NCBI GenBank assembly: GCA_963556145.1
Contig: OY744466.1
Location: 5,751,820-5,815,819, forward strand
Length of the DNA stretch: 64,000 nucleotides
Source: Hygrocybe punicea
Taxonomy: Eukaryota; Basidiomycota; Agaricomycetes; Agaricales; Hygrophoraceae
Reading direction: 5' to 3'
This document shows positions 5,275 through 30,913 of this stretch, piece after piece. The notes beneath the pieces were generated by a model. The model was not told the origin of the DNA and did not search any database. It saw nothing but the letters and a program-made list of their open reading frames with translations. The stretch's first letter is position 1. Every line of letters starts with the position of its first letter. The position numbers and the translations under genes were made by a program.

Positions 5275-6918
5275 AGAATATACCTTCAATCTACGTCGGA
5301 TGATGCATCCCACGACGAAACATGTAGCCGCACTCAACATGCTCGACCTCACACTTGAGCACCTTGATGTTCATGTCGGCGACGCAGGTCCGGAGCTGGA
5401 TCGCGTTGTCAAGGCCTGCGGCCGCAGTGAGTGCTGGCCAATTACCCTGGTGTCACGGAGTTGACGATTCATTGCATTTTTCAAGTGTTGAACCAATTGG
5501 ATTCGTTGCTGCCTAGTCCTGCGGACAAGGCAGCGATTCTTGTAGCAGCACACAAGGTCGTTGTGGGTAAGCAATGAGACACGTCTATTCCCATATTCGC
5601 AACCTGAATATTGGGATCTATAGACGGTCTTTCAAAGCTTTCGACAATTCGACTCAAGTCTGAAGCTGTGTCTGAGAAGAACCAGAATGGCTCAGGCACG
5701 GTGAATGCGTCTCCTGTGTCCAAGGCACCACATCCTTCTCAACTGAACTGGCTTGTGGATATGCCCATAATAAATCCTCCTTCCGATTTAGCATCACCCC
5801 CTGGTCCAATTCCTGGATTAGTAGTTCCAGAGGACGACAATATAAGTTCGACGTCGTCAAGTGTGCCAGATGAACACGATAGACAGCATTCAACACCAGG
5901 ATCGCCGCCTCTCGCTCCTCGCTCCCACTCACCCTCCGCGAATTCCAACCCCATATCCGGCGATATACTCCTTCCACTGATCATTTACTCCGTAGTCAAA
6001 GCTAATCCTCACCACCTCGTATCCCATCTGCTTTACACCCAACGATTCAGGAACCAATCTGTAGGCGGCGAGGAGAGCTATTGCCTCATCAATCTAATGG
6101 CCGTAGCGGAGTTTCTGGAGAATGTCGACCTCGCAGCGCTCGGTCTGGTTGATAGTGAAAATAAAGTCCTGAGGTTCGTTCGCATTTGCACCGGGGAAGA
6201 TGACTGGCTTACGGTGAACCCTCCCTAGCGCAGCCGCATTGACCCCGATACTACTCAATCTTTCCCCAATCAAGACCGAAACTCCTTCACCGGCGCAAGA
6301 CGGTCTACCCGGCAGCTTGCGAGGGCGTGTGGAACAACAGGTGGATGCCATCGCAGGTTCCGCGAACAAAGTGATATCAGGCGTTGTAGACTCGTTTGGC
6401 ATGTTGCGTTTGTTGTTGCCAAGGCAGGCGGGCAGCCCCGATCCCACGAGTCCTCCTGAGACCGCGTTCCAGAGCTCGGCACCTTGGAATGTCAATTCAC
6501 CGCAATTTGGCCTCCTTCAACGTGAAAGTGGCTTCTCGATCGCTTCTATAGCGGCGTCGTTGCATGGCGCTGGCGGTAGGACACACTTGAAGTCTATTCA
6601 CAGTGTCATGGAGGAAACCGGGCAGCCGCTTCTGGCGGTCTCGCGCCCCTCGTCGGCAAGGAGCGAGCGTACACACGAAGACCCAGACACGTCTGCTGAT
6701 AAGAACGATGAGGGGGGAGAGGGGCAGAAAGGCGGGGAAAACGACTTGGGTAGTGTCGATGATGGTGGAGATCATGATACCAGAAGTCTTCACAGCTTTG
6801 ATGAACGGGAAGAGTCGCGATCGTAAAGACGCCAGCACTCGAAAAAGCTTGTCAGACCGCCTCGCGAATATGTCTGGGTTGGCACGATTACAATATAAAG
6901 AACAGGAAACATCATTCA
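5275..6918 (+). pseudogene. VPS9-domain Rab5-type guanine nucleotide exchange factor, 5' part (gene split by transposon)
   Basis: Coding blocks 5275-5426, 5486-5566, 5624-6174 and 6229-~6818 join through short introns. The VPS9 core is clear: KHVAALNMLDLTLEHLDVHVG, LVAAHKVVVDGLSKL, then after a Ser/Pro linker LLPLIIYSVVKANPHHLVSH, RFRNQSVGGEESYCLINL and AEFLENVDLAALGL. Proteins of this type activate Rab5-like GTPases in endosome and vacuole traffic. The N-terminus before ~5275 is missing, replaced by the unrelated pseudogene upstream. Near 6815 the frame shifts by one base, then continues as KSLSDRLANMSGLARLQ up to 6918, where the 17.7 kb transposon enters. The missing tail is found beyond it at 24636-24930. 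The gene is thus truncated, frameshifted and interrupted. Confidence 0.75.
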
Positions 6919-7373
6919 CACATCAGGAGTTTCAACATTTAGTCAGGATCTAAAGTTATTTCTAAAGTTAGCGGCAAAATATAATCTTTAGATTTTCATT
7001 TAGGCCAAGTCTAAATATTGAATTTAAGTCACTGATAAAGGATTGTCTAAATTAATAATAAAAATTCATCTTTAGATTAGTCCTGCAATCAAAATAATTA
7101 TCAGTGCTAAATTGTGAAGGGAAGGTGTATTTTAGTTTCGAGTTTAATAACATTTGCTAGTCCAAATTTAGGCATCACTTAAAGGTAGGCTGGAATTAGA
7201 ACTTTTGGTAGGGCTTTGGTAGGGTCAAAATAATAAATTTAATGGATATCAAAATATATGATTTCGGCAGTTATCAAAATTCAAAATTTTCTGTCAGAAC
7301 TAAAGTTATTGCACGCTCGTCGCCCGCCCATCGCCCGCCCATCACCCAGCCATTGCCCAACCGTCGCCCACTC
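6919..7373 (+). repeat. Left terminal inverted repeat of the giant CACTA-like element
   Basis: 455 bp. The outer ~390 bp is AT-rich with many CTAAA/TTTAG motifs. The inner end is a run of CGCCCGCCCAT units (7320-7373). It matches the reverse complement of 24167-24632 essentially base for base, then similarity stops abruptly. Confidence 0.92.
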
Positions 7374-7916
7374 ACTATTGCCAACATGGGGCCACAAATG
7401 CCTGTGGGTAGGATTACAGGTTGTTAGGGATGAGGCGGCGGATCTGACGCCAGAACAGAGTCAGGTACACGCTAAAGCGGTGGGATCGCTGTTCAGGGTT
7501 AGAAGTGACGAGGACGGCGGACCTTCTGCCCTTGATCCCCTTGCCCTGCTCCTCCTGAGCAACACACCTCCTTTTACAGGTAGCTTTTAGCGTACCCGGA
7601 TGCGACGGAAGAGTGATTAGCGTGTATCTCAATATAGCAATGGGTGGAGGAGGGAGCGCCGGCTGACCAATGCTGAGCGTCTCCTCTGGAAGCCCAAGTG
7701 TTACGCTATTACCATGGCCTGGGCTGTCACGCCGTGCACGATTTACAACGGTAGATTTTGCCAGGCCTTTCAGAGTGACGTCAGGCAGAAGACTCAGGGG
7801 GATCTGCTTAACGGCACAGGTGAGGAAGGAGAGCAGATGGTGACAATGGGAGTGACCTGACCCACGAGATCAGGCGAACGATGGGGATCATGATCGGGGG
7901 CGACCGAGTCATCAAA
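7374..7916. other. Gene-free inner flank of the left terminal repeat
   Basis: About 540 bases between the left terminal repeat and the first subterminal repeats. No reading frame with recognisable features was found; the open frame at 7258-7590 runs out of the repeat and looks like chance. Confidence 0.45.
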
Positions 7917-7929
7917 GAGCCTCTCTTGC

Positions 7930-8115
7930 GGTTCTCAACGGTTGAGTCGCAGTCGTGGACACCTACTCGTCACCCTCTCAACAGCTGAGCCGCAGAGAAC
8001 TTACCTGGCGCCCCGTTTTCTCATCGGCTCTCTCAACGGTCACCTGACATCCCTTCTTTCTCCATCGGCACCCTCTGATCAACAGCTCAGCTGTAGAGAA
8101 CTCACTGTCGGTACC
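7930..8115 (+). repeat. Subterminal short-repeat array, left outer
   Basis: Three to four copies of a motif with core CTCAACGGCTGAGCCG followed by a TAGAGAACT.ACCTGGC tail. The core is itself palindromic (CGGCTGAGCCG). Copies in the left half of the element are in this orientation; those in the right half are reversed. Confidence 0.75.
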
Positions 8116-8248
8116 TTTACTCCATTGTTGTTTGCAGATATACGTGTCGGGCGGAATGTTTTGTAATATTATTCATAATATATACATAAAGGGGGGGCGG
8201 GGTCGGCATTGCAATGACAATGATGAAGAGCAGCCATCGAGACACACA

Positions 8249-10885
8249 CTAAGGAAAAACATGCCCTTTGAGAAATCGGCTCGCTGCATCCTCAAGTTTC
8301 TTGGCCAATCGAAGCGATCTTCCATGCCTCGGAAGCGTCTCATACCACTTCGCGGCAATCCTACACGATGCTTTGTTCAGTCGGATGAGTTCGAGACGTG
8401 TCTGGAACCAGTCTTCGGCAGCGGGACACCAGTAGCCAACGTTGAAAAGGCTCTTCTGCCACGTTGAGTGTTTTGGCCACCAAGAGAGATGGGAGACCTG
8501 CTTGCCCGATCCTATGTCATAGTTAGTATATGGCGGACTAAGTTAGAAAGAATAACTACCAGTATACACCCTGTATACGCCACAGATGAGATCAAGCTCG
8601 TCCTCATCGAGGCAGTCGTCAATGAAGATATTGTCCGAAGAACGAAAACGGAACACTTGTCCCCGTGCGAGGGCTGCATCAGAGGGACCAGTGAGGATGC
8701 ACCCGGGGCTGACGAACTCCATCGCGAGGCGCCAGATAATACCGCCCTTGAGAATGGCCGCACGTGCATGGGAAGAACGGAGGAAAGTGTCTCGAGCCGC
8801 TTTGTAAGCCGCATAATCAGCAGCATCAGGCTGATAGCCTATTGCGCACACACCGAGAGAAACGGGAAAGAGCGGAGGGTCGTGAATTGCTGAGTGTGGG
8901 GGGCAAGGGAGGAGGGTGTTGAAGGGGATGCCTCGTGCTGAAAGAAAATGGACAACATCTATGATACCCGTCATGCACGAGCGAGCGCACTGCAGCGCAG
9001 TGACTGGACTGTCCACTGCGAGCAGCCAGTCGATACTTTCGGCACCTTCGGCACCGTTTGCAGCACGAAGGAAATATATTCTCTGTGAGTTGCTCGTTTC
9101 GTGTGACTCAATTGCGACGTAATGGTCTAGTCTTTCGTGTAGCGGATAGAGACTCGACGAGCTCAGGTCCCATGGCAAGGGCGGGGGCACATCCACTGGG
9201 TCATTACTGATAAAACGTGCGACGAAGGAAGCTATCGGGCCTTTGTATGCATCAGCTACCTGAGAGTGAGCATCCTGTAAAACGTTGAGGGTTCGCTCCC
9301 ACTCAGCAACCGATGCCGGAGGACCCTCGAAGGGGATGGTGCCAGCTTCCCAATCAAATCCAGTGCGCTCATAAAGATTGGCGTCGAGGGAGTTTCCAAA
9401 ATTTGGAGCTGCCGCGGGGGTGTGGCGGTCGCCGACGCCATGGATGGAGAAGATATCTTGATGCCAGTGTTCAGCGGGAAGCGAAGCCGCGGCCACAGGT
9501 ATCGTTTGACTCTCCGAGTGCTCGGTGTCCATGGGACCAGTAGGTTGCATCAGCTCTCCTTCTTCCAAAGGATCATCGTATTCATCATTACCGAACGGGT
9601 CCTCGTAATCCACCGCATCAGGGGCGAATTCGGTGCAGATGTCCCATTCCCTCTCGAAGGCGTTGTACCGCATATGCTCCGTTGACCTGTCTTCCCACAG
9701 ATCCTCTATCTCTCGGTGGTTGACTCTCGTTCTCATGCGAAAGCCATCCACGTCCAACCAATGGAAGATGGCGGCCCCTCTCTTGCCTGGCGCACGGAAG
9801 TGCTCGCTTTCCTTCTGCCGAGCTAGGCGAGATGCCCTTTCTTGTTCAGTCTCCAAGGCGGCAACTTTCTCGTGGCGGGCTGTTTGCCGAACGAAAAATT
9901 CCTGCCACGTTTCCCCACGCTTTTGGCAGGAACCCAGGCTTGGCTGGGGAAGTTGTTGAGCCAGTGGAGGTGTCGTATTGTTAGGACCTGAGGGCGGCTG
10001 AGGGCTCCCTTCGGTAAAGGGCACAGCAGCCGACGCTAGTCGCTCTTCCCACTGCTGCTGGATCGCAGCCTGGACCTGTGCGTTGTTCGGTAAATATTTC
10101 TGTGCCTCGGGTTGGGGCGATTCATGTAAGGGCTTGTCGAGGGTGCTCCAGACGATCCATACTGGGATGCCGACCCTTATGAGTCTTGGCAAATGGATTA
10201 GCCATTTGCACGTCTGTATGTGTATGACTGTGCCAACTCTTGGATTGGCCTCATCGAACTGAGCAATTGGCGAGTCCTGCAGTTGCCGAACCCACTCGGG
10301 GTGGATTTTGGTATCTTTGACGAGTATTTTCACCCATGAGGGATCATCTCCGTATGGAACATCCTCAAAGGTGTGGTGCGAGATGGACATCGAGCATAAC
10401 GCCATGAGAGGGATGAAAGCGTCGCGAGATAGCATAGCACACTTCCTGGCAGTGTGTTCACGTTTATGGGAGTGGGAATAGCCGTATGTGTGAGGTATGG
10501 GGAAATGCTTGAAGTCGAGAGGGTAAAACCCACCAGGCGCTGTGCTCATTAGTTCCCGGGCAACCAGATGCAAGGAGTTCTCTAGGTCGCTCCACTTCTC
10601 ACGAACTACAGCTGCCAGTTGGAACTCATTACGAACACGTTCGAGAGGAATTGATTTGTAGTCGTAGACTAGGCGCTGTAGTAATGGGTGATTGAATCGT
10701 ATTGAGCGAGGCGCAAATGCCAGTTGCGGGAAGTCGTTGCAAGCCCAATTCAACTGGAAGCACCACTTTGGGTCGGGATCATCACATTCGAAGAATTGGT
10801 GGTTGGGGAAGTTCGTTAACGGTCCGGCATTCGGAGAAGTAATGACATAATTGTCAATGAGGAAAGTGGTAAGTGGGGAATTCAT
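8249..10885 (-). CDS. Agaricomycete family protein of unknown function, cargo of the giant transposon
   Basis: Coding sequence is 8560-10885 plus 8249-8511, joined across an intron at 8512-8559 (GTAGTT..ACATAG with a TACTAAC branch site). This gives 862 codons, frame exact. I recognise a recurring Agaricomycete family but know no function. Blocks: an N-terminal region with W.DLE (~90), HKREHTARKCAMLSRDAF (~145-165), PVWIVWSTLDKP (~240), a charged stretch with KRGETWQEFFVRQTARHEK (~330), then FHWLDVDGFRMRT and RYNAFEREWDICTEFAPDA (~375-425), and a C-terminal SWWPK..W..S.FNVGYW block after the intron. No signal peptide or membrane segment was seen. It diverges from the Tnp2 gene: both lie just outside an arm of the 1040-bp inverted repeat, so they have related upstream regions. 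A broken relative is at 4270-5160. Confidence 0.72.
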
Positions 10886-11118
10886 CTGGAAAGCTTGTGA
10901 GTTAGATGGAGTCTTGCAGTACGGCCAGAAAAACTACTGACCTCTTTACAGGCCAAGCAAACGGGGGAGGGGAAGGCGGACAAGGTGGACAATGAAGGCG
11001 GAAGAGATCGATGGGATTAAGGGGTCGATGGGGATGGCAGATGGGTGATCACGAAGGTAGGGGACCAGGAGGACCAAAAGGTAAGCTTGCTCGTACTTTG
11101 TACGGGCGAACGATGGCA

Positions 11119-12158
11119 GAGACCAGATGCGATGGGAGTGACCTGAACCAGTAGGGGACCACGAGGGAACCAGGAAGGGGACCAGGTAGGTGACCACGAG
11201 GAAGACCAAAGGTAAGCTCGCTAGTACTATGTACGGGCGAACGAGGGGACCTAGGAAGGGTAGTTGCTTGCTGGTACTTTGTACTGGCGAACGTTGAAGA
11301 AAAAAACATGACTAAGTCAGAAAACAATATGACTAAACTGACGCGTCAACAGGGACAAACATCCCAGCTCCTCACGACTGAGTCGTCAAAGAGCTCTCAT
11401 CCAGTTCTCAATGGCTGAGCCGTAGAGAACTTACCTGGCACCCGCCCATCTCCTCACCGTCGTCGTGTCGTACCTGGCGCTCCCATCTCATTATCGGCAC
11501 TCTCAGCGGCTGAGCCGTAGAGAATTCTGGGCGCTCCCGTCTCCTCACCGTCGTGGACTCCTCATCGTCGCCCTCTCAACGGCTGAGCCACAGAGAACTT
11601 ACCTGGCACCTTGTCTACCTGGCGCTCCCATTTCCTCATTGGCAGGCACTCGCTCAATACCCCACCTGGCACCCCTCCTTCTTCATCGTCACCTCTCCAT
11701 GGCTGAGCCGTAGAGAGCTTACCTGGTGCTTCCATCTCGACCTTAATGGCAGCGCTTTGGTTCCACTGTCCTGGCGCTCCCATCTCCTCATCGGCACTCT
11801 CAGCAGCTGAGCCGTAGAGAACTTATCTGGCGCTCCCATCTCCTCATCGGCCTCTCAACAGCCGCGCCACGCCGCGTTTCCATCAGTTCAGCTTAATCGC
11901 ACCCTTTTCAATTTCATGACCATTTCCGTCCTGCGGAATACATTATTCCACCACACTATGTACAGTATTATTCGACCACATTATGTACAGTATTATTCGA
12001 CCATCAGTTCCCTCCATACAAATTTCATCCTTGCTGGTTTCAGCACGCGTATAATATACTTGTCTGTCTGCCGGACGAGCCAGTTCTCATTGTAAAAGCA
12101 AGCGGGTAGCTCACAAACGGGATCGCGAACACTGACAGTGTTCCTACCGTCCCTTATC
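11119..12158 (+). repeat. Inner 1040-bp inverted repeat, left arm
   Basis: Reverse complement of 17921-18960. Both arms are exactly 1040 bp, with only scattered substitutions by eye. The arm holds the last ~165 bases of the minus-strand gene at 11993-14340, a subterminal repeat array and repeated CGTAC...GTACGGGCGAACG motifs. It ends where the upstream region of the 8249-10885 gene begins. Confidence 0.9.
11390..11865 (+). repeat. Subterminal short-repeat array, left inner
   Basis: About eight copies of the GGCTGAGCCGTAGAGAAC-type motif, spaced 40-70 bp, alternating with GCGCTCCCATCTCCTCATC segments. The open frames on both strands here are repeat-derived and not taken as genes. Confidence 0.8.
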
Positions 12159-14340
12159 CTGCAACACGGTTTAGCACCCCTGCGGGATTGCGTTCTTGCA
12201 ATCCTTTGGTACTCGTCATCAATGATCCTCATCTCGAGGTCCATGTTGCGTCACCAATGCATGGTCGTTGGGCGATATGCAATCTCGAGATCGTCATCGT
12301 CGGCGTCGCTGTCTTCTGAACTCATCCCGTCTTCTCCCAAATTTTCCATCACTGACTTTAACCACTCCCAATTGTCGACATCTGGTGCCTCCTCCTGTTC
12401 TTTGCAACCGATGGTCTCCTTTATGATAGTTAGCCGACGATTGAATTTCTGGGGGCGATTGTTTAGCTTGTTTTTTGTTGAAGATTTCCGCAGATGCACC
12501 GCAACACGTCGTTCTCTCCTCCTAGCAAACTTCAACTGCTTATCCTTGTGTGCGATTATTCGACCTTCCACTTGTGCCGGAGTTTCCAGTGTATCCGTAT
12601 CTGTCAGCTTTGGCTGACCGAGCCTCCAGGCGGCCCTCACCCGCTTGTATCTACCTTGCAGAATGTCGTGAAAGTAGGCCGTTGACCTTTCCGGCAACCG
12701 AAGTCCTGATTTCCTACAAGCTTTTCTCATCTTCTTCACCAAGATGTCCAAGATGGCAGCGTTCCATTCGCTGTTGGGACCAGCCCTCATGTCGAAATGG
12801 AGGTCCTTCAAATCAGGCTCTGCTCTTCCTTCCTTGTGCGCGTGAACAATTGCAGGGGTCGCAGACCTTTGTCCCATAAAGTCATCGTCGCCATCGACTT
12901 TGAAAACTTCCTTGAAAACTTGGCGGGATATATCCTGTTCAGAGGTCCGTCAATCAATAGCGCAGAATGCGACACACATGCACTCACCAAAAAAATTGAC
13001 GGGATTTCGGCAGTCTCCGCCTCCTTTATCGCCAGGACATCCTGATCAACGTTCGATTTTCGTCCTCGGCGCCTGGTAGTCTGTTTTGGTGGCCCGCAGG
13101 CGGCTTGCTGCAGTATTAATCGCAGCATGTCGAGGGCTTCTTCTCCTTTATGCTTCTGTCGTCTAGACGCCTTTGACCTATGGGGATACTTTCCTTTGCC
13201 CATTGTGCGTCCATTATCCTCACTCGATTCACCTTCTGTTTCCTCACTAGTTGAAGATGCAGTAGTATCCGACTTGGCGTTGCTCTCGCTTCCTGTGTCT
13301 GACGATTCAGAGTCCATTGTCTAGCATGCCATAAACTTTCTTGCATCGACAGGCAAATATCCAGCCGACGCACCTGTTCACGATTTCTTAGCACGGGAGT
13401 CCCTGAGCGGTTCTTGTGTTTTGATCGCAGTTCTGCCATAAATTTGCTGGTGGATGGAGTTGCTGCTCTGGATTTCGGTTTCTTGCTCACGTATGCTGGT
13501 CCCTTCGGTGTTTTCTTTGATTCACTCGCCTCCGGTGGATCACGGACGGGTTGCTGCATCTTGTTGGACCATCGGGCTTCCATAGCTGCGATTTCTTGCT
13601 CTTTCTCGGCCTGAGGGGTGTCATTCTAAATATGATGACTTATCACAATAATACACACCAGCGAGCGTCTCAACATCATGTCAACTTCTTTCCGGTGCGC
13701 TTCCTCCCTTGCTTGGACTCTCGCATTCAACTCCATCATAAGAGCTTCAAATCGTATTTCATATTCGTGGCGAGTTGCTTCTTCCTTTTCTTGCGCAAAT
13801 TTCTCTAATTCCTTCAATCTCGTCTCCAGTTTTGCCTCCATGTGTTGGACAGTGGTTTGATTCTTTAAACGAGTGAGTAAATTACACTTAGGACTTGTCG
13901 GGGACGAACCTTCTGTCTCAGTTTCCAGATTCTATACTGAGAGAACTCTAGCTGCTCTCGGAGATACTTCTCATCACGTGAGTATCTATCATCCTGTTTT
14001 TCCACGATTTGACGTTTATGCTGAATGCTATGATTAGTTTCGATGCTCCTTGAGATATTTGCCGCCAACGTACAGGACTGACAGTCTGATCATTCATCCG
14101 TACCAGCGTGAAGTTGTTGTCGTTCATCTCCTCATCCTCGTCATCGAAGCGGTCTTCTACTCCCAGGACTGGAGCATTTGTTGTCACCGAAACGTCCATC
14201 TCCACACCTGAAGCAGCCGGTGCTTCTTGACCGGAGGGAACTGAGTGAGGATCGGAGGGAACTGAGTGAGGATCAGAGGGAACTGAGTGAGGATAGAAAG
14301 ATGTGCCGTGAAGTTCTCCTGGACTCAGTCCATGAGACAT
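11993..14340 (-). pseudogene. Six-exon Agaricomycete family gene of unknown function with a nonsense codon near its end
   Basis: Exons on the minus strand: 14074-14340, 13910-14020, 13659-13862, 13374-13610, 12988-13320 and 11993-12934. All introns are 47-53 nt and phase 0, giving ~697 codons. Exon 1 holds three 21-bp repeats encoding PHSVPSD. Exons 2-3 form a charged coiled coil (MEAKLETRLKELEKFAQEK). Exon 5 is Ser-rich then basic (TRRRGRKSNVDQDV). The last exon has a conserved region, MGQRSATP to GMSSEDSDADDDD, and an ending FYNENWLVRQT..ELMVE. An in-frame TGA at 12251-12253 lies between MHW and RNMDLEM, where relatives I recall have an arginine, so CGA to TGA is likely. The family is common near transposons, but I know no function. 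The final ~165 bases lie in the left 1040-bp arm and are duplicated at 17921-18086. Confidence 0.68.
14234..14296 (+). repeat. Three 21-bp tandem repeats in coding sequence
   Basis: GGAGGGAACTGAGTGAGGATC-like unit three times; in frame with the minus-strand gene it repeats PHSVPSD. Confidence 0.85.
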
Positions 14341-14466
14341 GGTGTCGGGGTGTGGGATGGAGAAAGAAGACGATCGTCGGTCGGAAGGCTTTTAAGACTA
14401 ATGTAATTCTTGTTGAAAACAATAATTATTGAGGCATCTTCGACAATGACTCACTGACGCTCCGGT

Positions 14467-14690
14467 CGTGGAATAGAAATTATATTTATTGTTTTAATTC
14501 TCTGGCTCGGCGGTCTACGTGATAGCGCGCTTTTCCTAAATGCATCCGGTCATTTATTGTTCCAACTCTGACCCTGAAAAATAGAAATTATATTTATTGT
14601 TTTAATTCTCTGGCTCGGCGGTCTACATGATAGCGCGCTTTTCCTAAATTCTTCCGGTCATTTATTGTTCCAACTCTGACTCTGAAGGCG
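14467..14690 (+). repeat. ~107-bp tandem duplication
   Basis: Two head-to-tail copies of an AT-rich block containing TTATTGTTTTAATTCTCTGG and TCATTTATTGTTCC, with a partial third copy to about 14730. It lies in the spacer between the diverging genes at 14340 and 14989. Confidence 0.85.
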
Positions 14691-14988
14691 GCGGCCTATC
14701 TCGAATGATCGCGCCCTTCCTAAATTCCAGTTATTTATTATGATGACGATGCCTGACAATTAGTATGGCTACTATCCAACTCTGGCCTATTGTATGACGA
14801 TGCCTGACATCTTCCAATTGCCCACTCCTATCGCCCGGATGTTTTTTATTCATATCGTGTGGTCGCGCGCATTTATTTCCAACAATACAGTTAAATTGTT
14901 GAAATACACCTGCAATTGCCTCACATTGCCCGCTCTCATTGCCCGCTCCCATTGCCCTCTCCCATTGCCCTCTCCCATTGCCCCGTTC

Positions 14989-15830
14989 ATGGTTTCAGAA
15001 TCAATCCCCCCTTTCTTTGAGGCTGGGCCTCCGCCACCTTCATATCCCCTCCTTACCATCCAGGCCGACCTCGCCTATGTGTCCACTCCTGCTGTCCCTA
15101 CGATAACAGCTATGGAGGAACTCAGCCTGCGTAGAGGCCCGACTCCGACCAGTCGTGCTCCCAGTCGTGCTCCCAGTTGTGCAGCCAGTCGTGCTCCCAG
15201 CTCTGGCCCGAGTCGCACAGTCAAACGCTTACCGCCCCGCTCCTCATCTCCCTACGTCGTACCGGCGCCTAAGGTTAAACCAAAGGTCGCTTTCACTAAT
15301 GCGGATCTAGCGTCCAAATCGGCTGAGTCATCGTGCCTTTCCAATATTGATGAGTCGTCTGAGTCAAGCGATGAATTGGAAGATGGCCTCATACGAAAGC
15401 CTGCTGGTCAGGTTGGTCGGCCCAACAGAGGTGGATACAATCTTGAGGATGCCATGAATTGGCCACCAAAGACGTTTAAGAAATTCCAGGTGGGTGGAGA
15501 ACTTTCTGCTGTGTTGTGCCTGCTGACAGTGAATACAGAGATATGTGCACAAGCTCATTAACACTCACCTCGATACCACGCAAAGTTACCAACCACAGAA
15601 GGAGAATCTTCGCCAGGCTGTGCGAGATACGGTCAGCCTTTTTTTTCTGATTGTGAAAATAACTCTAAACATACAAACAGGCAACGGCAGCCTTTCCTGA
15701 ACTTGCAAAATACGAAGGCTGTTGGCCAGTGAATGACGTTATGATGTTACGTTTAAAGAATACATCACGATGTGAGAAATTGACGATACAGAAGTTGGCT
15801 GCGGGGACAAAAGGGAAGGGTCGGGAGTAA
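14989..15830 (+). CDS. Short three-exon gene of unknown function, cargo of the giant transposon
   Basis: Exons 14989-15489, 15539-15631 and 15681-15830 (247 residues), with clean GT..AG introns of 49 nt. The N-terminal half is low complexity, rich in Pro/Ser/Arg (SRAPSRAPSCAASRAPS). The conserved part spans the two introns: NWPPKTFKKFQ, then RYVHKLINTHLDTTQSYQ, then AFPELAKYEGCWPVNDVMM and LRLKNTS. I recall this module as recurrent in Agaricomycetes near transposases; function unknown. After LKNTS the normal tail seems to be replaced by repeat-derived sequence, because the stop lies inside a triplicated 90-bp block. The gene may therefore be truncated. Confidence 0.55.
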
Positions 15831-16048
15831 ATGCGTCGTTGCAATTGTCGTCGTAAATAATCAGCCGTCGCAGTGAATTGAGAAATTGATGATATGGAGA
15901 CAAAAGGAAAGGGTCGGGAGTAAATGCATCGTTGCAATTGTCGTTGTAAATAATCGGTCGTCGCAGTGAATTGAGAAATTGACGGTTGCGGAGACAAAAG
16001 GAAAGGGTCGGGAGTAATGCGTCGTTGCAATTGTCGTTGTAAATAATG
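15774..16048 (+). repeat. Three ~90-bp tandem repeats
   Basis: Three head-to-tail copies of a block with GAGAAATTGA, ACAAAAGGAAAGGGTCGGGA and TTGCAATTGTCGTTGTAAAT. The first copy supplies the stop codon of the preceding gene. Confidence 0.85.
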
Positions 16049-16261
16049 AGAGTCAGGCAGCCATGCAGGCGACAGGAGCATCAGTCGTGCTCTCTCGTCG
16101 CCTACTCTCATCGCCTAGAAACAAAATAGGTAGAACAATTAGCAGGAACAGAGACTTGCACCTACATAAAGGGCGGGTGTCTCTTGTTTCGCCACCCATA
16201 AAATCACTTGTTTGCGCAGGTCGCCCACTCCATCGTACTCGCTCACACTCCCTATCTAACC

Positions 16262-17909
16262 ATGTATCAATTGTTCCAATTGATCACATCGTTGTACACG
16301 CTTGTCGCACGTCTCAAAGGTCATACCGATGCTGTCTACTGGCTTGCAGTATCACCAAACGGCGACTTACTCGCCAGCGCCGGTGAGTAGTCATTAACGA
16401 CTTCCTAGTAAGTATATTTAATCTATGTGATGATAGGAGGAGATGGTGTAAGGATATGGGACTTACAAAAGCACCAACACACCTTGGTTTCCCAAAGCCA
16501 CATCCTGCGAGGACCTACCACTTGCATTGGGTGGGTCAGTGGTAAAGATGATTCGTCTGCAAAGGTATGTTACGGATCAGCATTGGGCTACCTCGTCGTC
16601 TGCCAAGTTCTTCCTGAGGTGTGTGCTGTGCCGTTCAAAATGTAGAAAAGAAACTCAGGCCCTCTAGACCTGGGAACTTTGCGCCAAGCGAATTGCAACC
16701 GGCCAGGAGATTATCTGTATGGCTGTAGGCGACATGTGCCATGATGGGTCTGTGCGTATCACCCTTGGCACCGGTGACAGGGTAGTCCAAGTCCTCAAGA
16801 CTGACTCCAAGGGCGAACTTCATTCCGTGTTCAGCATCCGACTGGACACCACAGTTCCGATTACTGTTGGCTTCGTTGATAACACTGCTAAAGATATTCT
16901 GATATTCAGCCTTTACGATGGCAAGATGTAAGTGATTCCTTACTCCTCTATTTCGATGGTAGATTTGAGTTTGTCATACAGGCACACATTAAGAGGCGAC
17001 AACGGGAAAGAAATTTCAACCATAGATCTTGGCGGTATGATGTGGGTACTCGCTCACCTCTTTTTGAAAATATCTCATCCAGGAACAGAGGTAGCGCTGC
17101 AGTCAGCTATGGTCAAAATCAATTTGTCGTCGACAGCGTTACGAATGGTTTCAATTTATATCAGCTCGACAACGGGCACTGGAAGCGCAATTTTCCAACT
17201 GGCACGCCTACCCGTAAACTTCCCAAACGTGTTGCCTTCGCAGAGGACACTGGGGTTGTCGTGGGTGGGAGCGATCACGGCGCCGTCTACGTGTTCGATA
17301 AGAGGACTGGTTCGCCGCTCCACATCCTGCATCACCAAGAGCATGGGATGGTGCAAACGATCACGGTAAGCATACGAATATTCAGCAGGATGACTTACGA
17401 TAACGTTGGTACAGACACACGACCGAAAAGACCGGAGCATGATAGCCAGCGCATCGTCCACCAGGTGCGGGGAAACCTCTATCTGCATCTGGGTGCGGAA
17501 GAATCGTCAGGCAAAACGTACGAAGCCAATGGAAGTCTCGACGGGTAATCACTTAATGCAATTGGTAATGCTGGTGGCGACCGTGCTATTCCTTTATCAA
17601 AATTTCATTGGACGTGATTTTCACCTCAGCAAGAGCATCCGCCGCAACGTCATAGACCCCTGGGTTCACAACGCCAAATGGCAGGTCCAGCAACCTGAGA
17701 CGGTCCATGGGAGTGATGAAAACTTGGGTGAGGCCATGGTTCCATCGATGGCTCCAAAGGTCCACAGGAACGGTGAGACTTTTAGCGAGGAACAGGTCGT
17801 TGCGATTATCAAGGGAATGCGGCAGGCTATCGCGAGAAAAGAGAAAGAGAAGAGGGATGATGAGCCGGTGACCTCCCTGATGGTACCTAAGGATGTGATT
17901 TACGTTTGA
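16262..17909 (+). CDS. WD40-repeat protein with a C-terminal transmembrane helix, cargo of the giant transposon
   Basis: Six exons: 16262-16382, 16437-16618, 16668-16927, 16982-17034, 17091-17365 and 17415-17909. The fourth intron could also be 17042-17082; either choice keeps frame and gives about 461-467 residues. WD40-like blades are visible: HTDAVYWLAVSPNGDLLAS, GGDGVRIWDL, HDGSVRITLGTGD, FVVDSVTNGFNLYQLDNG, VVGGSDHGAVYVFDKRTG, SASSTRCGETSICIWV. A hydrophobic helix near the end (LMQLVMLVATVLFLYQNF) suggests membrane anchoring with the propeller on one side; the tail is charged (KEKEKRDDEP). I recognise this architecture as common in Agaricomycetes, without a known role. All exons are open, so it looks intact. 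Its stop lies 11 bases before the right 1040-bp arm. Confidence 0.75.
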
Positions 17910-17920
17910 CTCAGACGAAT

Positions 17921-18960
17921 GATAAGGGACGGTAGGAATACCATCAGTGTTCGCGATCCCGTTTGTGAGCTACCCGCTTGCTTTTACAATGAGAACTGGC
18001 TCGTCCGGCAGACAGACAAGTATATTATACGCGTGCTGAAACCAGCAAGGATGAAATTTGTATGGAGGGAACTGATGGTCGAATAATACTGTACATAATG
18101 TGGTCGAATAATACTGTACATAGTGTGGTGGAATAATGTATTCCGCAGGACGGAAATGGTCATGAAATTGAAAAGGGTGCGATTAAGCTGAACTGATGGA
18201 AACGCGGCGTGGCGCGGCTGTTGAGAGGCCGATGAGGAGATGGGAGCGCCAGATAAGTTCTCTACGGCTCAGCTGCTGAGAGTGCCGATGAGGAGATGGG
18301 AGCGCCAGGACAGTGGAACCAAAGCGCTGCCATTAAGGTCGAGATGGAAGCACCAGGTAAGCTCTCTACGGCTCAGCCATGGAGAGGTGACGATGAAGAA
18401 GGAGGGGTGCCAGGTGGGGTATTGAGCGAGTGCCTGCCAATGAGGAAATGGGAGCGCCAGGTAGACAAGGTGCCAGGTAAGTTCTCTGCAGCTCAGCCGT
18501 TGAGAGGGCGACGATGAGGAGTCCACGACGGTGAGGAGACGGGAGCGCCCAGAATTCTCTACGGCTCAGCCGCTGAGAGTGCCGATAATGAGATGGGAGC
18601 GCCAGGTACGACACGACGACGGTGAGGAGATGGGCGGGTGCCAGGTAAGTTCTCTACGGCTCAGCCATTGAGAACTGGATGAGAGCTCTTTGACGACTCA
18701 GTCGTGAGGAGCTGGGATGTTTGTCCCTGTTGACGCGTCAGTTTAGTCATATTGTTTTCTGACTTAGTCATGTTTTTTTCTTCAACGTTCGCCAGTACAA
18801 AGTACCAGCAAGCAACTACCCTTCCTAGGTCCCCTCGTTCGCCCGTACATAGTACTAGCGAGCTTACCTTTGGTCTTCCTCGTGGTCGCCTACCTGGTCC
18901 CCTTCCTGGTTCCCTCGTGGTCCCCTACTGGTTCAGGTCACTCCCATTGCATCTGGTCTC
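17921..18960 (-). repeat. Inner 1040-bp inverted repeat, right arm
   Basis: Reverse complement of 11119-12158. 17921-18086 is a 3' fragment of the gene at 11993-14340 (IRDGRNTISVRDPVCELP ...). The rest forms the upstream region of the Tnp2 gene, which starts 36 bases beyond the arm. Confidence 0.9.
18205..18685 (-). repeat. Subterminal short-repeat array, right inner
   Basis: About eight copies of the CTCTACGGCTCAGCCG-type motif in the orientation opposite to the left half. It lies ~300-800 bp upstream of the Tnp2 start. Confidence 0.8.
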
Positions 18961-18995
18961 GTACGAGCCATCTCCTAGGTCTTCTCTCGTTATAC

Positions 18996-21900
18996 ATGCC
19001 CCGTCGATCAGCCGTTGTATACTGCACCTGTTTGGAGTGCCGCCGCATCAATGTGAATGGCCTTCCATTCTCCTCTTCAGTCGAGAGGACTGCACATCTG
19101 GCTCGTATCAGATTGGAACTCGACGCTGATGCAGCCCTGTCAGGACCAGATACAACCCTGGATCCCGAAATTTACGCTGCGCAGGTTCTCACTTCGACCC
19201 TTTTGGATCCGGCACCTGATCCATTTAACCAGCCTTCAAAACTTTGGACGTCCCGCATGGCTTTCCAGGCAGAGAGCAATCAGGTTACACCCGATCTTCA
19301 TATCGATGACATTATTGATGGTGTGCGCCGTCTCAACTTGACGACTAGTGTCCAACCTCCTGCATCCCTTTCTGTCTCCCCCTCAGCTAATTTGCAGCTT
19401 CCTACGGAATCCTCTCAGCTGATAAATGCTTTCACTCGTCTAAACATATCTGCTCCCCCACCGACCGCAACCCCTGCATTACCGGATTTACCCACTTCTT
19501 CTTCGGCACGTCGACCTCTTCGCCGCACCGATCGCAAGACCACAAAATCCCTCGACATATTGCAGAACATACGTACACGCCTATCCCTTACTCTGAAGAG
19601 TTTGTCTGCGCCATCTCACCAGATCCTCTGCAAAGCTGAATCGGAAATCGACATCCTCCGTGAAGCCCTGGAGAAAGTCAATTGTCGCCACCCACTGGTG
19701 GTACAGTCGAAACAGGAACTTTCCGCAAAGCTTGAGACATTAACGACACGGGCCAGCGAACTACGATGCTCTTTTCCTCGACCCCATACTCCCATGATCT
19801 TTGATTCTAGTAAGAAAATTCATCAAATTTCCCTTGGAATATGTATTCACGGTGCTACAGGTCATCATTACGAGTGTCTTGTCGATGAATGCACTACTGC
19901 TGCCCAGGTTTCAATGTTTCTTGGTGTTGTCTGTTGCGTCATCATGGGAGTCAGCCAGCGCGCAGGGGATCTCATCATGGGCCTTTTACGTCTGGTTATT
20001 CGCCTTCTTTCTGCAAAACCTGACGGAAGCATGGATCCACTACAAGCCCGTACTATGCGGCAAGTCCCTCGCTCTATCAAGGAAGCCCTCGTGAAGTTCA
20101 ACCTAGTTAGTCGAAGTACCATATACGCAGTATGTCCTGCATGCCATGCCACCTATCCACCTCTTGCAAAGCCGGATAATGCTGGTTATCCGGAGCGTTG
20201 CACAAACCGACCTATCCCCAAAAACGGCCCTTGCGACACGCCATTACTTCAGGATGCATTGGGGGATGGTCAACGAAAACCAATCAAACCATTTGTCTAT
20301 CACCATTTCGCTGACTACCTGGCAGGACTGCTATCACAATATGAGGCTGTGATGGACAAGTCATGCAATGACTGCTTCAAATCTGTTCGGCAATCCTCAA
20401 ACCCCAATCCAATCAGAGGCGTATTTGATGCCAAATTCATTCGGAGTTTTGAGGGGCCTGTTCCTGGCCACTTGTTCATCCAGCGCCCAGGTGATGAAGG
20501 TCGTTATCTTTTTGCCCTAAATGTTGATTTCTTCAACGTCGAGGGGTTGCGAACACGGGGTTCCGCTACTTCGTGTGGAATTATATCTTTAGCCTGCCTG
20601 AATTTACCTCCCGAAATTCGTTATAAACCCGAAAATATGTACCTTTCGTTAATACCTGGTCCAACTGAACCACACCTCACGGAACTCAATCATTACATTC
20701 GTCCTTTGGTCAGTGATATGGTAGTTGCTTGGGATGATGGAATATATATTTCTCAAACCCCCAGATACCAGAAAGGTCGCCAAACTTGTAGCACTATTGC
20801 CCTTGCTGTCAATGACCTTCCTGCTGCTCGCAAAATTGCATCATTGGCATCTCACAACAGCCACTTTTACTGCTCCGTGTGCCAGTGCCATCACCTAGAT
20901 ACTCGTGGCTCGACAAATTTCAAGGACTGGCGAGTTCGCGATCATAAAGAAATGAGGAGACTTGCGGAATCCTGGAGGGATGCTCCAACTTCTGTCCACC
21001 AAACCAAGATTTTCCAGGCTTGCGGTATTCGGTGGTCAGAACTCTGGCGTTTACCATACTGGAATCCAACTCAGCAGCTTGTCATCAATAGCATGCACTG
21101 CATACTTGAGTGTATTTCTTCATACCATTCCCGAGATGTACTTGGTCTATCAGCTGCCGCTGCCGCTGAAAAACTACCAATTGTCCGACCTTTCTCCTAC
21201 AAATTCTCTAATCCTACCTCAGATGCAATGAATGAACGCTGCTCCCAACATGTTCACGAAATCCATTCTCTTCTTACTGCTCCTATTACGCCTGAACAAA
21301 CTTTAGAGAAACTCTCAGAGCGACTGCAGAAAAAAAATTTGCCCGCAATACGATTTGTTGTGGATGACCTTGGCCTTACTGTTGAGCCTGATCCCTCAGA
21401 TACACGGGCAATTGTTAGGAAAAGGGATTTCGTTAAGTCTCTTGTGAATTGGGTATGCAACACTCGCACCTGATAGTGTTAATCAACTAACAATTTACAG
21501 CGGCAGGAGAAACCTTTCGAAGCGCCAAATCAGCCCATCAAAGTCGTGACACCTCAAGTTCTCCAATGCGTTCGGGATGTTATCAAAGATACAATCACAC
21601 CATCCTGGGTGAGGTCAGTTCCGTACAACTTTGGAGATGCGGCGGCAGGAACTCTAAAGGCTGATGAATGGCGAACCATGTACACGATATATCTTCCAAT
21701 TGCTCTTATTAGTTTGTGGGGGGTTGACAAGCTGCATCCATCCACCAATGCTGCACGACAAATGCGTGCAATACTAGATCACACCATGGCTCTCGTCTCT
21801 GCTATCACTATTTCGTGTTTGCGGACAATGACACCGATACGGGCCACATCATTCCGCTCTCATATTGTTGCATGGATAAACGATCTCAAGAAACTCCACC

Positions 21901-22712
21901 CCCATGCCAACCATCACACATATCACCATCTGGCTGTTCACATCTACAATTTCCTCCTCCTCTTTGGACCAGTACAATCCTGGTGGTGTTTCCCATTTGA
22001 ACGTCTTATCGGTCTGCTGCAGTGTTTACCCCACAATCATAAGTTTGGTGAGCCACTGTTTACGATTACTGGTCCAGCTTTAAGTAATCTCAATTTATGG
22101 CTAGGTCAACTAGAGAGTAGATTGACTGAAGCCTTCATGCAAGGAGCAAGGCTCAGATGTTGGATTGGAAGATCGGATAGCCCTCCCGCAATCCAGGAAT
22201 GCAAGGTACTTTTCCGAAAGGCATATGGTTCTGATCCGCGCCAATCCATTGATGGGGATAACGACGAGGATGATCTCGAGGAGAAACAAGAAGTCTCAAC
22301 ACCTACCACCCTCCAGACTGTTGTTAAAAGTAAAAACGTGGTTTTGCGTGCACGATTCAAGCATCTGGGAGTTGTTTATGCACGATCATCTACTCATCTG
22401 GGAAATAGTCTGATCATGTACTACCCAGGGGTCAGCAAATCTTTGGCACCGGTACCTGGGAGTATCCAACACATATTTGAAAGGGAGGGTAAAACTATGT
22501 TCGCTATGAGGAGATATCTCCGAAAACAACCCAACGTTATTGATCCCTTCAGCTCTTACCACGATTTTCCGGCGCAGCTCTGGTCTTCTGAGATGAGAGA
22601 TGAATTGGAACTTGTGGATCCTGATTCAATTTTCTGTCACTTCGCCTGCAGGAAATGGAACGCTGGACATGTTGTTGTCCTCTCACTCCCTAAGGTCCGC
22701 ACTGAGCAATAA
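18996..22712 (+). CDS. tnp2: Tnp2-family (CACTA/EnSpm, fungal Plavaka-like) transposase
   Basis: Exons 18996-19809, 19861-21452 and 21501-22712 give 1205 residues, frame exact. Intron 1 is 51 nt without a stop, so retention would add 17 residues. The start ATG gives MPRRSAVVYCTCLECRR, with a Cys pair typical of these N-termini. The Tnp2 core is clear at ~490-620: ALNVDFFNVEG, CLNLPPEIRYKPENMYLSLI, PGPTEPHLTELNHYIRPLV, then FYCSVCQCHH, a Cys/His pair. Near 950 is the block LLFGPVQSWWCFPFERLIG, matching the DUF4218-like region that follows the catalytic part in CACTA transposases. It would cut and join the element ends (CAC..GTG) and make 3-bp target duplications, as seen here. It is open throughout, so the element may still be autonomous. 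Its upstream region is the right 1040-bp arm. Confidence 0.88.
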
Positions 22713-24166
22713 CAGCCAACAATGTACTAACCTCCAGACAGTACTAGGTTGCATGGAATTGAAGGTTGAATAACTATTGTGTATAATAATTCAAAACAAT
22801 GAATGTATCGACAATGGAGCCTCTGCAGTTGAGTCACTGGGATGACGGTAAAGTTCTCGGGTGCTCAGCCATTTGAGAAGTTCCAATGTCAGGCCACAAC
22901 GGCGGCGAGAATATGAAAGCAGCGCTAAAGTGCAGTGGTGTGCCGATGATGAGAGGAAAGGGTGCCGAGATGGAAGCGCCAGGTAAGCTCTCTGTGGCTC
23001 AGCTGCTGAGAGTGCTGATGAGGATATGGAAGCGTCGTTGAGAGTATGGGAGTGCCAGGTAAGTACTCTGTGGCTCAGCTGTCCGGAGGGTGACAATGAG
23101 GTGTCCACGACCAGAGTTCTCTATGGCTCAGCTGTTGAGAGGAGAGGGTTCTGATAAGGAGATGGGAGCGCCAGGTATTACAGTTCTGTATGACACGGCG
23201 ACGGTGAGGAAATGGACGGTGTAGATGCGGGTTCTTGGTGGCTTCGGAACTATATAAAGAAATAAATAAAGATCCTAACCAGAGGGTGTCAGCGTAGAAG
23301 TGACTGGATAAATCAGTGTCGGGAATAGAAGTAAAAAGAAGGGAATGTTAGTAAAAGTAAAGCCGCCGCGTAAAACTGGACTAATAACAACGAAGCCGGC
23401 GATGAACGGAGTGAAAACGGACAAATAATAAAGAACCCGACGATGCCGACGATGTCGGGTATGGCGGGTCAGGTCGGGTTGGGTCGGAAACGATGAACAA
23501 ATATACGGGAACAATGATAAAGTCGACGAAGTGAACTATAAAAAGCTAAGGATCTACGTGGACGAGCATTTGAAGGGATTAAAACAATTCTGACTATGAG
23601 GGAAACGGGGACTAATGGTATGTTATTTTGTGCAGTCGTCGGGGACCGTTTTTATAGTACAGGAAACAGTAATCTACTTTCGGACATGTCTACTTCGGCC
23701 GATGGTAAGCTACAAAGAAAGGTTGGAATGGGGATATGGAAAAGGGGGGTTGCAAAGCAACGAAGACAGGAAATGGAGGGGAAAACGAATATGCAAGGAA
23801 AAGATCTAGAAAGTCCTACATATCTCCGAAAAGACGAGGGGATGCATAATTAAGGTAAATCCGAAGTCAGGGATTGAGTCCGAAGAGATCCATCTCCTGG
23901 AATTGGAACTCCGAGGCGTTTGAGGCTGCCGGATTTAGCCCAAAAGCGGCCGTCACAAAGCGGCATGTGTCGGGTTACGTCGGTCACGTCGGGTCACGTC
24001 ACGTCACGTCACGTCGGGTTACGTCGGGTTCGAATGCAAGTCGAATGGCGGCAACGGGTTGCTCCGGATTCGTGATATATCGATGATACGGACTCAGAGG
24101 GATGTCGACCCTCTACAACGGGTGCCAGGAAAGTTCTCTACAGCTCAGCCGTTGAGAACTGGATGA
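22713..24166. other. Non-coding 3' region of the giant transposon with subterminal repeats
   Basis: Five reversed copies of the CTCTRTGGCTCAGC-type motif lie at 22840-23165, and one more at 24130-24160 abutting the right terminal repeat. 23940-24030 has GTCGGGTTACGTCGGGT-like short repeats. Open frames at 23596-23853 and 23615-23809 have no recognisable features. Confidence 0.6.
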
Positions 24167-24632
24167 GAGTGGGCGACGGTTGGGCAATGGCTGGGTGATG
24201 GGTGGGCGATGGGCGGGCGATGGGCGGGCAACGAGCGTGCAATAACTTTAGTTCTGACAGAAAATTTTGAATTTTGATAACTGCCGAAATCATATATTTT
24301 GATATCCATTAAATTTATTATTTTGACCCTACCAAAGCCCTACCAAAAGTTCTAATTCCAGCCTACCTTTAAGTGATGCCTAAATTTGGACTAGCAAATG
24401 TTATTAAACTCGAAACTAAAATACACCTTCCCTTCACAATTTAGCACTGATAATTATTTTGATTGCAGGACTAATCTAAAGATGAATTTTTATTATTAAT
24501 TTAGACAATCCTTTATCAGTGACTTAAATTCAATATTTAGACTTGGCCTAAATGAAAATCTAAAGATTATATTTTGCCGCTAACTTTAGAAATAACTTTA
24601 GATCCTGACTAAATGTTGAAACTCCTGATGTG
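24167..24632 (-). repeat. Right terminal inverted repeat of the giant CACTA-like element
   Basis: 466 bp, reverse complement of 6919-7373 plus one extra 11-bp GATGGGTGGGC-type unit. It ends CTCCTGATGTG and is followed by the TCA duplication. Confidence 0.92.
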
Positions 24633-24635
24633 TCA

Positions 24636-25689: not shown

Positions 25690-25905
25690 AACCTAGGACT
25701 TGGGACTTGAAGTAGAAATCTGTATGCCATTAAACACTAAGCCGATGAATGTGAGCGCCATGCTCAGCGCCCCAACAATGACACCAGCTCTCATCTTCAG
25801 ATTCTTCCGGGTTGACCGCCCCAGTCGGGATATCATCGACAGGCGGACATCCATCGGGATACCAGTGAGGGTTGCACAAGCGTGTCAGGCCGAGCAATCA
25901 TGCAA
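25690..25905 (-). other. Short membrane-segment ORF remnant, unidentified
   Basis: Minus-strand translation gives STRKNLKMRAGVIVGALS followed by MALTFIGLVFNGIQI, a likely transmembrane stretch, before a stop. It may be the end of a neighbouring gene or part of the ATPase 3' region. Not identified. Confidence 0.2.
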
Positions 25906-27137
25906 ATAAGCAGGGGTGGGGCTGGAGATGTTGGTGCATCCCCAGATGCTAAGAGACGATGACGTAGTATGGCGTTCTCGAACTCTGTCGATGGCAGTAC
26001 TCCATCGGGGCCGCACCAGCGGCAAAACTTCAGGCATCGGGTATAATCGCATGGATATGAACAGGATTTCGAAGGGAGGGGAGCAGGCGAACAAGAGCAC
26101 CAATGGGGAGTGATGCTGTGCCCAAGAGAATGGAAATTCCCCATTCCTGTCCACCGAGTGGGACGACCTGGAACCCGGGACCATCAAAGAACACAATTAA
26201 AATCTGGACAGCGATTTCTAACAAAAATGTGATTCAACCTCAAGGTGTCGAAGCAAGAAAGAGAGAGAAAGAGAGAGAGATATAGAGAGAGATCACACAC
26301 ACCAATTGATATGATGGCGAGAAAATAGTAGTTGCGCATGATGCCTTCAAAAATGTTCAACATCTTGTCCAGTCGTCGACAATTGATAGAGTTGGAAATT
26401 AGAGCGAACACGAGTGAGTTGAAAACCAGAGTTTGAACTATGAGTTGATGGCGTTCTTGCGTTGTTTGACCGGTAGGGAAGTGCCGGTAACTAAAGTGGA
26501 GCGTGAGGATGAAGACAACCTGATAGATGGACTGGGAAAAAATCTGCTTATACATATCTACACTGAATAATGTTGCCTTTTTATTGGGTTTGAGGTACAG
26601 AAGTGTCTCAGGAGCAGGATCTGCGGTGAAAGCCAGTGCTGCGAAAACATCCATGATGATGTTGATCCAAAGCAGTTGAACGGGGGACAATGGGGGTGAT
26701 GCTCCAGAGGAGGTGAAAACTGCGACAAGAGTGATGATGATAGCAGTGACTTGCGTTGAGATATGAAACTGTAGAAACCTGCACACACAACCATTTAGGC
26801 AACGGCCCCACATTATACCCTTGACGATAGAAGCAAAGTTGTCGTCCACGAGGGCAATATCAGAAGCCGCCTTGGCAACCTCGATTCCAGAACTGCCCAT
26901 CGAGAAGCCAACGTCGGCAGTTTTGGGCGCAGGCACGTCACTGGCACCATCTCCCGTAACCCCAACGACTTTGCCCAGCTCCTGCAATTTCTCCACAAGG
27001 ATCATCCTGTCCTCAAGGGTCGACTGTACCAAGAACTGCAGATTCGGCACAACTTCCAACATCTGCCGCTCATCAAGACTTCGGAACACAGGGCTTTCCA
27101 TGACAATACCACCGGCAGAGTCGATACTGGACTGTAC

Positions 27138-29704: not shown

Positions 29705-30913
29705 TAGTGTTGCCGTAGTTCGGTTCCGAACCTAGCCGAACCCGGTTCAAACCCCGAACCGAACCCTAAGTTCGGTCTAAGTTCAGCCAAGTGCTGAACC
29801 GGACCGCGGGTTCAGTTCCGGGTTTCGAGGCCTGCCGGATTTCCTGAACGGCTCCAAACCGCGTTCAAACCGCGAACGCGGATATTTTTAAGGTATTGAT
29901 TTCATTTGTTTTTCGTATTTCTTTACTTACTATTTCGTGTTAAACGGCATCATGTGACCGACCGTGACCTTTCACGCAACACAGCAACTTCAACGCGGGT
30001 TGAACACAACACAATTTGTGTTGTGTTCAAAGGTAAGTTTCCATTTTTTTCTTAACTTTACTAATGTTATTTGCGGCAGGCAACTCGACTGCGACCACAT
30101 CGCAACCACATTGGCACAAGATGAATGCCAACGCCAACGCAATGCCAACGGGCGCGGGGCAGCCGCAACACCACCACCACCACCACCACCACCAGCGGCG
30201 GCAACGGCAATGGCAAAGGCAACGGCAACCAGGCAACGACAACGGCAACAGCCAGCAGCAGCAGCAACAGCGGAAGCAGCAGCGCCGGCAGCAACGGCAG
30301 CAGCAGCAGCAGCAGCGGCAGCGGCAACAGCCAAAGCCATCCAACATCACCACCAGCGGCGGCAACAACAACGGCAACCACAACTATGACGGCCAGCAGC
30401 AGCAGCAATGCCGGCAGCAGCAGCAACAGCAACAGCAGCAACAGCGGCAGCAGCAACAGCGGCAGCAGCAACGGCCATGACAGCAGCAGCAGCAGTGGCA
30501 GCAGCAACGGCGACGGCAGCAGCAGCAGCGCCGGCAGCGGCAGCAACGGCAGCAACGGCAGCAGTGACAGTGGCGGCAGCAACGGCAGCAGTGACAGTGG
30601 CGGCAGCTACGGCAGCAGTGACAGCGGCGGCAGCAGCAGCGCCGGACGGCTCCCCCGCAGCCCAACTACCTCACGAAGTGTAGCGCCGTATCGATTGATA
30701 CGTGCCTGCCATTCACGAGGAGAACGGAGCTCATGGGGTGAGCCCACCTCGGTCCGAGGTTCAGACCGCGTCTGAACCCAGACCGAACACGGAGAAACGG
30801 TTCAATGCCGTCCGGGTCCAGGTTTGGCCATGCGCCAAACCGGACCCGAAGTTCAGTTCGCGGTTCCGCCAAAAAGGGTCGGAACCAGACCGAACTGAAC
30901 TTCGGCAACACTA
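29705..30913. mobile_element. 1.2 kb non-autonomous hAT-like element, copy 1 (nested in the 4.3 kb element)
   Basis: 1209 bp with ends TAGTGTTGCCG(T/A)AGTTC in inverted orientation, flanked by the 8-bp duplication GTCCGTGG (29697-29704; 30914-30921). Near both ends GAACCG/CGGTTC hexamers are repeated. The body has a splice-like cassette (GTAAGT at ~30032, branch-like CTAATG, GCAG at ~30080) and long CAN/CAG trinucleotide runs. It is a sister of 33110-34293; the last ~270 bp are near-identical. No transposase. Confidence 0.88.
30125..30660 (+). repeat. Trinucleotide (CAA/CAG/CAC/GGC) low-complexity tract
   Basis: Open in most frames on both strands, encoding runs of Q, S/G or A/T on one strand and L, A or C on the other. 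Best read as expanded trinucleotide repeat rather than coding. Confidence 0.8.

Follow-up and report, generated by a model that had tools for sequence, protein, structure and literature searches.

A large CACTA-type transposon with long terminal repeats and a probable resident set of four further genes in the mushroom Hygrocybe punicea

A 64,000-nucleotide stretch of the Hygrocybe punicea genome (assembly GCA_963556145.1, contig OY744466.1; G000:C8:5751820-5815819), hereafter the window, was analyzed against the 92.2-Mb assembly of 42 contigs to which it belongs. The window contains a CACTA-type transposon at positions 6919-24632, 17,714 bp in length. The sequence CACATCAGGAG is found at both element ends in inverted orientation, and TCA adjoins each end from outside, forming an unstranded target-site duplication with copies at 6916-6918 and 24633-24635. 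The left terminal inverted repeat (6919-7373, plus strand, 455 bp) starts with CACATCAGGAG and is 98% complementary, across 453 bp aligned without gaps, to the right terminal inverted repeat (24167-24632, minus strand, 466 bp). Inverted terminal repeats of EnSpm/CACTA transposons are normally short. The CAC...GTG ends required of this group are present, with T as the first base in a near-identical duplicate on contig C39. The original prediction, made from the sequence alone, had given the span as 6916-24635; its bounds and repeat lengths were right, and its span takes in both TCA copies.

Five genes lie between the terminal repeats, all predicted from open frames and frame-keeping GT-AG junctions, so that both the open Tnp2 and the four further genes noticed earlier are present. 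Gene A (8543-10885, minus strand) has one exon encoding 780 amino acids, gene B (11993-14340, minus strand) has seven exons encoding 685, and gene C (14989-15830, plus strand) has three exons encoding about 242; all three are of unknown family. Gene D (16262-17909, plus strand, six exons) encodes a WD40 protein of 466 amino acids with one C-terminal hydrophobic segment (19-residue mean hydropathy of 1.8) and has named relatives in Rickenella, Ganoderma, Trametes, Phlebiopsis, and Ramaria. The Tnp2 transposase gene (18996-22712, plus strand, exons 18996-21452 and 21501-22712) encodes 1,222 amino acids and matches the Pfam family Transposase_21 with an E-value of 2.4e-9 and 37.1 bits, compared with a cut-off of 28.6. 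The only other Pfam matches among the element proteins were to WD40, to DUF4218 below its cut-off, and one at chance level for gene B; genes A and C had no Pfam match. For gene A, an AlphaFold model from seven sequences reached a mean pLDDT (predicted local distance difference test) of 54.5 and a pTM (predicted template modeling score) of 0.36, and a Foldseek search of it against PDB gave no matches at E <= 0.001.

Among 75 aligned Tnp2 relatives, residues D511, C626, C629, and H701 are present in all, D607 in 97%, and E705 in 92%, and D511, D607, and E705 are candidate D-D-E catalytic residues. At the level of sequence, then, the element has the Tnp2-type DDE transposase with CxxC that EnSpm/CACTA requires. 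Protein relatives of this transposase come from Mycena, Armillaria, Pleurotus, and Sanghuangporus, among others; most of the named protein relatives belong to Agaricomycetes.

The genome was searched with the left repeat, scoring the best 40 of 288 candidates (counts are lower bounds), and six independent loci of the element family were found. In addition to the window copy, these are C2a (C2:3.403-3.424 Mb, 20.5 kb), C2b (C2:4.089-4.106 Mb, 17.4 kb), C1 (C1:1.574-1.590 Mb, 16.6 kb), C34 (C34:1.132-1.171 Mb, 38.7 kb with extra sequence inside), and C7 (C7:0.510-0.535 Mb, which has lost its outermost right end). Where they align with the window copy, all five are 96-97% identical to it. The C39 copy is 99.7% identical to the window copy, its flanks show no difference in 803 bases and one in 798, and sequence about 50 kb from the element is equally spaced on the two contigs. 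By these similarities the C39 copy is either allelic or the product of a segmental duplication rather than a separate insertion, and the number of independent loci is therefore six. Since the whole element is uninterrupted on C39, an assembly break within the 17.7 kb, which would have undermined the prediction, is argued against. The C2b right end is repeated 9.2 kb further on with the same flank (G000:C2:4106041-4115256), probably by tandem duplication.

In all five two-ended loci the flanking triplets are equal at both ends (TCA, TCA, TTG, TGA, and TGA), which is the 3-bp duplication of EnSpm/CACTA. The 26-bp end pattern, with at most two mismatches, has 172 matches in the genome (82 and 90) compared with 0 for a reversed control, and the two results together place the observation beyond chance. 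Joined flank pairs from C2b, C1, and C34 were searched for empty sites, and only the C1 pair matched across the junction elsewhere, in four rows at 88% identity; the three paralogs fetched all have a single TGA. An empty site thus exists as a paralog of the C1 site, and no allelic one was found among the three loci. The left flank of C34 has many matches that belong to a repeat ending a few bases before the insertion. The earlier claims of a CACTA-type element with 3-bp duplications and unusually long terminal repeats were upheld.

Most ends among the matches listed belong to a second type (GACTTTC) with repeats about 81% identical to those of the element family. One short relative, L040:848-2892, is 2,045 bp long and has two ends with ACA on both sides, and the five element proteins have no match in it or in four partly read short relatives. 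From their sequences, such short elements look like non-autonomous relatives, probably moved in trans. The possibility that the terminal repeats are widespread solo repeats with their own duplications had been named as damaging to the transposon reading. Related repeats are indeed common, but the one complete case read has two ends and its own ACA duplication, as a non-autonomous relative should, so that as far as the reading went this possibility is not borne out.

Genes A-D were found in all six loci. The original prediction held that the transposon moves host-type genes as cargo, and in that reading an ancestral CACTA element captured A-D from a host and now carries them for or against its host, as a basidiomycete counterpart of Starships. 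Copies of a cargo transposon would vary in gene content; comparison of the copies gave an identical gene set at six of six loci. Some features do suit cargo: the WD40 fold of D is one that hosts commonly have, A-C have no transposition domain in Pfam, and A forms a separate dispersed family. Relatives of C and D, and less clearly of B, elsewhere in the genome argue the other way. Match rows were collapsed by hand into places (77 rows for D, and 53, 70, 60, and 52 for the Tnp2, B, A, and C searches), places were counted outside the seven near-identical copies, and only the best candidates were scored; same-family remnants account for 2 of 26 places for D, 2 of 25 for C, 2 of 11 for B, and 1 of 49 for A. 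A scored Tnp2 relative lies within 30 kb at 13 of the 26 D places (0.64 expected), 14 of the 25 C places (0.62 expected), and 3 of the 11 B places (0.27 expected). Gene C is also within 30 kb of D at 19 of 25 places, 17 of them with the two genes 1.4-2.0 kb apart, and B is within 30 kb of D at 7 of 11. Remnants aside, the D relatives share about 25-59% identity with the window gene, the C relatives 31-70%, and the B relatives 27-51%, which marks the pairings as old. A sister locus at C39:4.717-4.736 Mb has B, Tnp2, C, and D.

The pairings extend to other species, from which 198 proteins were collected. A gene model of Mycena citricolor (P0179) fuses a D relative (24% identity) to Tnp2 (34%), and one of Mycena maculata (P0184) fuses Tnp2 (33%) to an A relative (31-32%). 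Metagenome relatives of A (P0118) and of Tnp2 (P0144) each have a longest contig of 9,202 bases, and it may be guessed that both lie on the same contig. With the same four genes at six loci and diverged relatives of C and D, and less clearly of B and A, adjoining other Tnp2 genes, the cargo reading is unsupported, and we regard it as unlikely. A-D may nevertheless have been captured from a host very long ago. The element is instead probably an Agaricomycete cut-and-paste transposon of the CACTA/EnSpm type whose five genes form a resident set. On sequence evidence, C and D appear with good support to be resident genes of the transposon lineage, B with fair support, and A, the least certain of the four, with moderate support.

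Several observations weigh against a resident gene set. Gene A is near a scored Tnp2 at only 2 of its 49 dispersed places, with 1.2 expected, so A also spreads without Tnp2. Half of the D places (13 of 26) have no scored Tnp2 within 30 kb, and some D places are short generic WD40 matches. The expected numbers assume that places are independent of one another, an assumption that copies of related transposons do not satisfy. Relatives of B and C were searched within this genome only. As an observation in its own right, relatives of gene A form a dispersed high-copy family at the 49 places outside the family copies; they are mostly 58-67% identical, and many have an open frame of about 780 amino acids, mostly away from Tnp2.

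The middle of the element is bounded by a 1,040-bp inverted pair of internal arms, 99.3% identical in the window copy. The left arm (11119-12158, plus strand) contains the outward leader of gene A, five palindromic sites, and the last exon of gene B, and the right arm (17921-18960, minus strand) contains the outward leader of Tnp2, five palindromic sites, and a spare last exon of gene B. Between them lies a 5.8-kb center that holds C and D entire and the greater part of B, and this center is oriented one way in the window, C2a, and C2b copies and the opposite way in C1, C34, and C7. Within-copy arm identity is 99.3% in the window, 97.1% in C1, 95.8% in C2a, 98.5% in C2b, 96.5% in C34, and 95.9% in C7. 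All six values exceed the mean between copies, 95.0% (95.01% for arms of the same side and 94.90% for those of opposite sides; range 94.0-96.1%). These identities fit an exchange between arms, as judged from sequence, with the counterpoint that the values for C2a and C7 fall inside the between-copy range. Three parts of the element gave trees that are almost star-shaped and whose inner branches vary in support, so that they yield no count of center flips.

The arms also raise the possibility of a composite, in which a simpler Tnp2 element received a second mobile unit spanning 11119-18960. Besides the inverted arms themselves, a locus at C40:3.788-3.807 Mb could be taken for such a unit, as it has both arms together with B, C, and D but lacks a scored A or Tnp2. 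Long arm matches are paired at that locus and in the family copies and one-sided at C39:5.658 Mb, and none lies outside copies and remnants; the arms are placed equally in every family copy read, and the pairing of D with Tnp2 is found in other lineages too. The arm edges were tried as transposon ends and rejected, the outer edges being without duplication. A composite origin is accordingly very improbable. Contig C36 also has a few short arm matches immediately upstream of dispersed copies of gene A.

Within the window, the palindromic motif of the arms matches 17 times (0.10 expected) and never outside the element; because some are read on both strands, these represent 14 sites. Set against the subterminal repeats of EnSpm/CACTA elements, the matches are divided: thirteen of the 17 are in the internal arms, and four lie towards the ends, one on the left (7983-7998, plus strand), and on the right two within 22989-23133 (minus strand) and a third at 24135-24150.

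The window copy carries a nested insertion of 900 bp near its right end (23220-24119, unstranded) with TGTAGA...TCTACA ends and an ACGG duplication on both sides, which is missing at the equivalent junction in C2a, C2b, C1, C34, and C7. Because C2b has uninterrupted sequence there, this insertion is younger than the insertion of the element lineage. Two relatives of the nested element, 92% identical, lie inside the C34 copy at 25792-26709 and 30322-31228 of the joined stretch. The transposon itself was inserted before the C8/C39 duplication, and the predicted "recent insertion" was not borne out, since it predates both that duplication and the nested insertion; yet the window copy has the fewest private substitutions of the six, 79 compared with 144-229 in the five others. 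Among the element copies, 70-79% of private substitutions are G:C to A:T, of which 75-81% are at CpG, and inside the element 42 of 47 differences between C8 and C39 are CpG transitions. This decay points to cytosine methylation of the element, as in methylated transposons.

Whether the window copy is still functional is a separate matter from its gene content. Tnp2 has stops or frameshifts in all five other loci, and an open Tnp2 is restricted to the window copy and its C39 duplicate; together with the nested insertion and CpG decay in the window copy, this leaves a little under an even chance that it is a relic as dead as the others, with its open frames owed to luck, a reading compatible with a resident gene set. 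On the other side are its low number of private changes and its reading frames, as A, B, D, and Tnp2, the four genes compared, are all open in the window copy and C39 duplicate and in no other. The suggestion that the element is possibly autonomous is supported to that extent. For these four genes, the ratio of nonsynonymous to synonymous substitution rates relative to the five loci is 0.38-0.91, which is weak evidence of constraint because most changes are CpG transitions. The window element is a genuine CACTA-type transposon with well-defined bounds, and it may still be working.

For such a transposon with resident genes, the following mechanism is proposed. Tnp2, a DDE transposase by homology, would recognize the long terminal repeats, excise the element, and insert it with a 3-bp stagger, and genes A-D would work for the element as accessory genes and be retained when it moves. 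An element protein probably binds the palindromic motifs found near the ends and in the arms, where they adjoin the outward leaders of gene A and Tnp2. Arm-to-arm recombination would invert the B-C-D center and homogenize the arms, and because each arm has a leader and a last exon of B, no gene should be broken by a flip. Since the element appears to be methylated by the host, some accessory genes may, speculatively, counter silencing.

Comparison with known systems places the element closest to EnSpm/CACTA (the CMC or CMCT group), with which it shares CAC...GTG ends, 3-bp duplications, and a Tnp2 (Transposase_21) with D, D, CxxC, and E, and from which it differs in its terminal repeats of about 460 bp, its five genes, and its internal inverted arms. 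In the red alga Chondrus crispus, CACTA families of 16-20 kb with 4-5 open reading frames are described in excerpts of the source (PMC6431247); these are alike in size and gene number, and are likened to the present element by those two features alone, the host being very distant. PlavakaB transposons of Agaricomycetes have CATCA...TGATG ends, 2- or 3-bp duplications, and EnSpm-like transposases, and TET/JBP genes occur in some fungal EnSpm and Plavaka elements, according to passages of the report (PMC12730594). The hosts are alike, and CATCA...TGATG occurs in the present element two bases inside the ends, whereas in PlavakaB it is outermost; no TET/JBP gene was recognized here, and the term WD40 has no occurrence in PMC12730594. 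In Cryptococcus neoformans, the active CMC elements CNIRT6 and CNEST (PMC12810828) are likewise basidiomycete CMC transposons with DDE transposases, but the sections consulted from that source mention no conserved set of four further genes. Starships, also reported from Tremella (PMC13066641), are large multi-gene fungal transposons as well, and differ, as summarized in part of PMC12134995, in having a tyrosine recombinase and accessory cargo, in contrast to the DDE transposase and constant content found here. No report of a WD40 gene in a CACTA-type transposon was found among the listings of openly licensed papers searched, CACTA, EnSpm, and Tnp2 have no occurrences in PMC3411680, and PMC9674265 and PMC4455052 contributed nothing further.

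Judged against the portions of this literature that were available, the probable resident gene set, long terminal repeats, and flipping center set the element apart as new, and an enlarged CACTA element with 4-5 open reading frames is already known from the red alga. More tentatively, the element may represent an undescribed mushroom clade of large CACTA transposons that have had their own membrane-anchored WD40 protein and up to three unknown proteins since before the Mycena split, with these proteins as helpers in transposition or anti-silencing and with a self-flipping center that keeps the leaders of gene A and the transposase alike. If true, a eukaryotic cut-and-paste transposon can hold a multi-gene toolkit over long times, for which bacterial Tn7-like elements are a parallel. 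Definite genes, above all the WD40 protein, would then be available for testing a role in transposition or in escape from methylation. The element also cautions against taking the additional genes of large fungal transposons for cargo as a matter of course.

Other repeats are present in the window and genome. A tandem array with GACAAACAAGCCATGACTCAAGCATGCTCAACCC-like units of about 37 bp lies at 61633-62326, and long CAG/CAC/CGGCAA-type repeats, perhaps within genes, lie at 30169-30640 and 33570-34020. A 2-kb piece of the window (56500-58500) is found at 18 places, itself included, with an identity of 97% or more across 1.69 kb or more, which indicates that large duplications are common in this genome; its relatives are partly near contig starts and on small contigs, and the pattern looks like subtelomeric duplication. 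The genome is also rich in other transposons, with at least 186 KDZ matches and at least 151 Helitron-domain matches.

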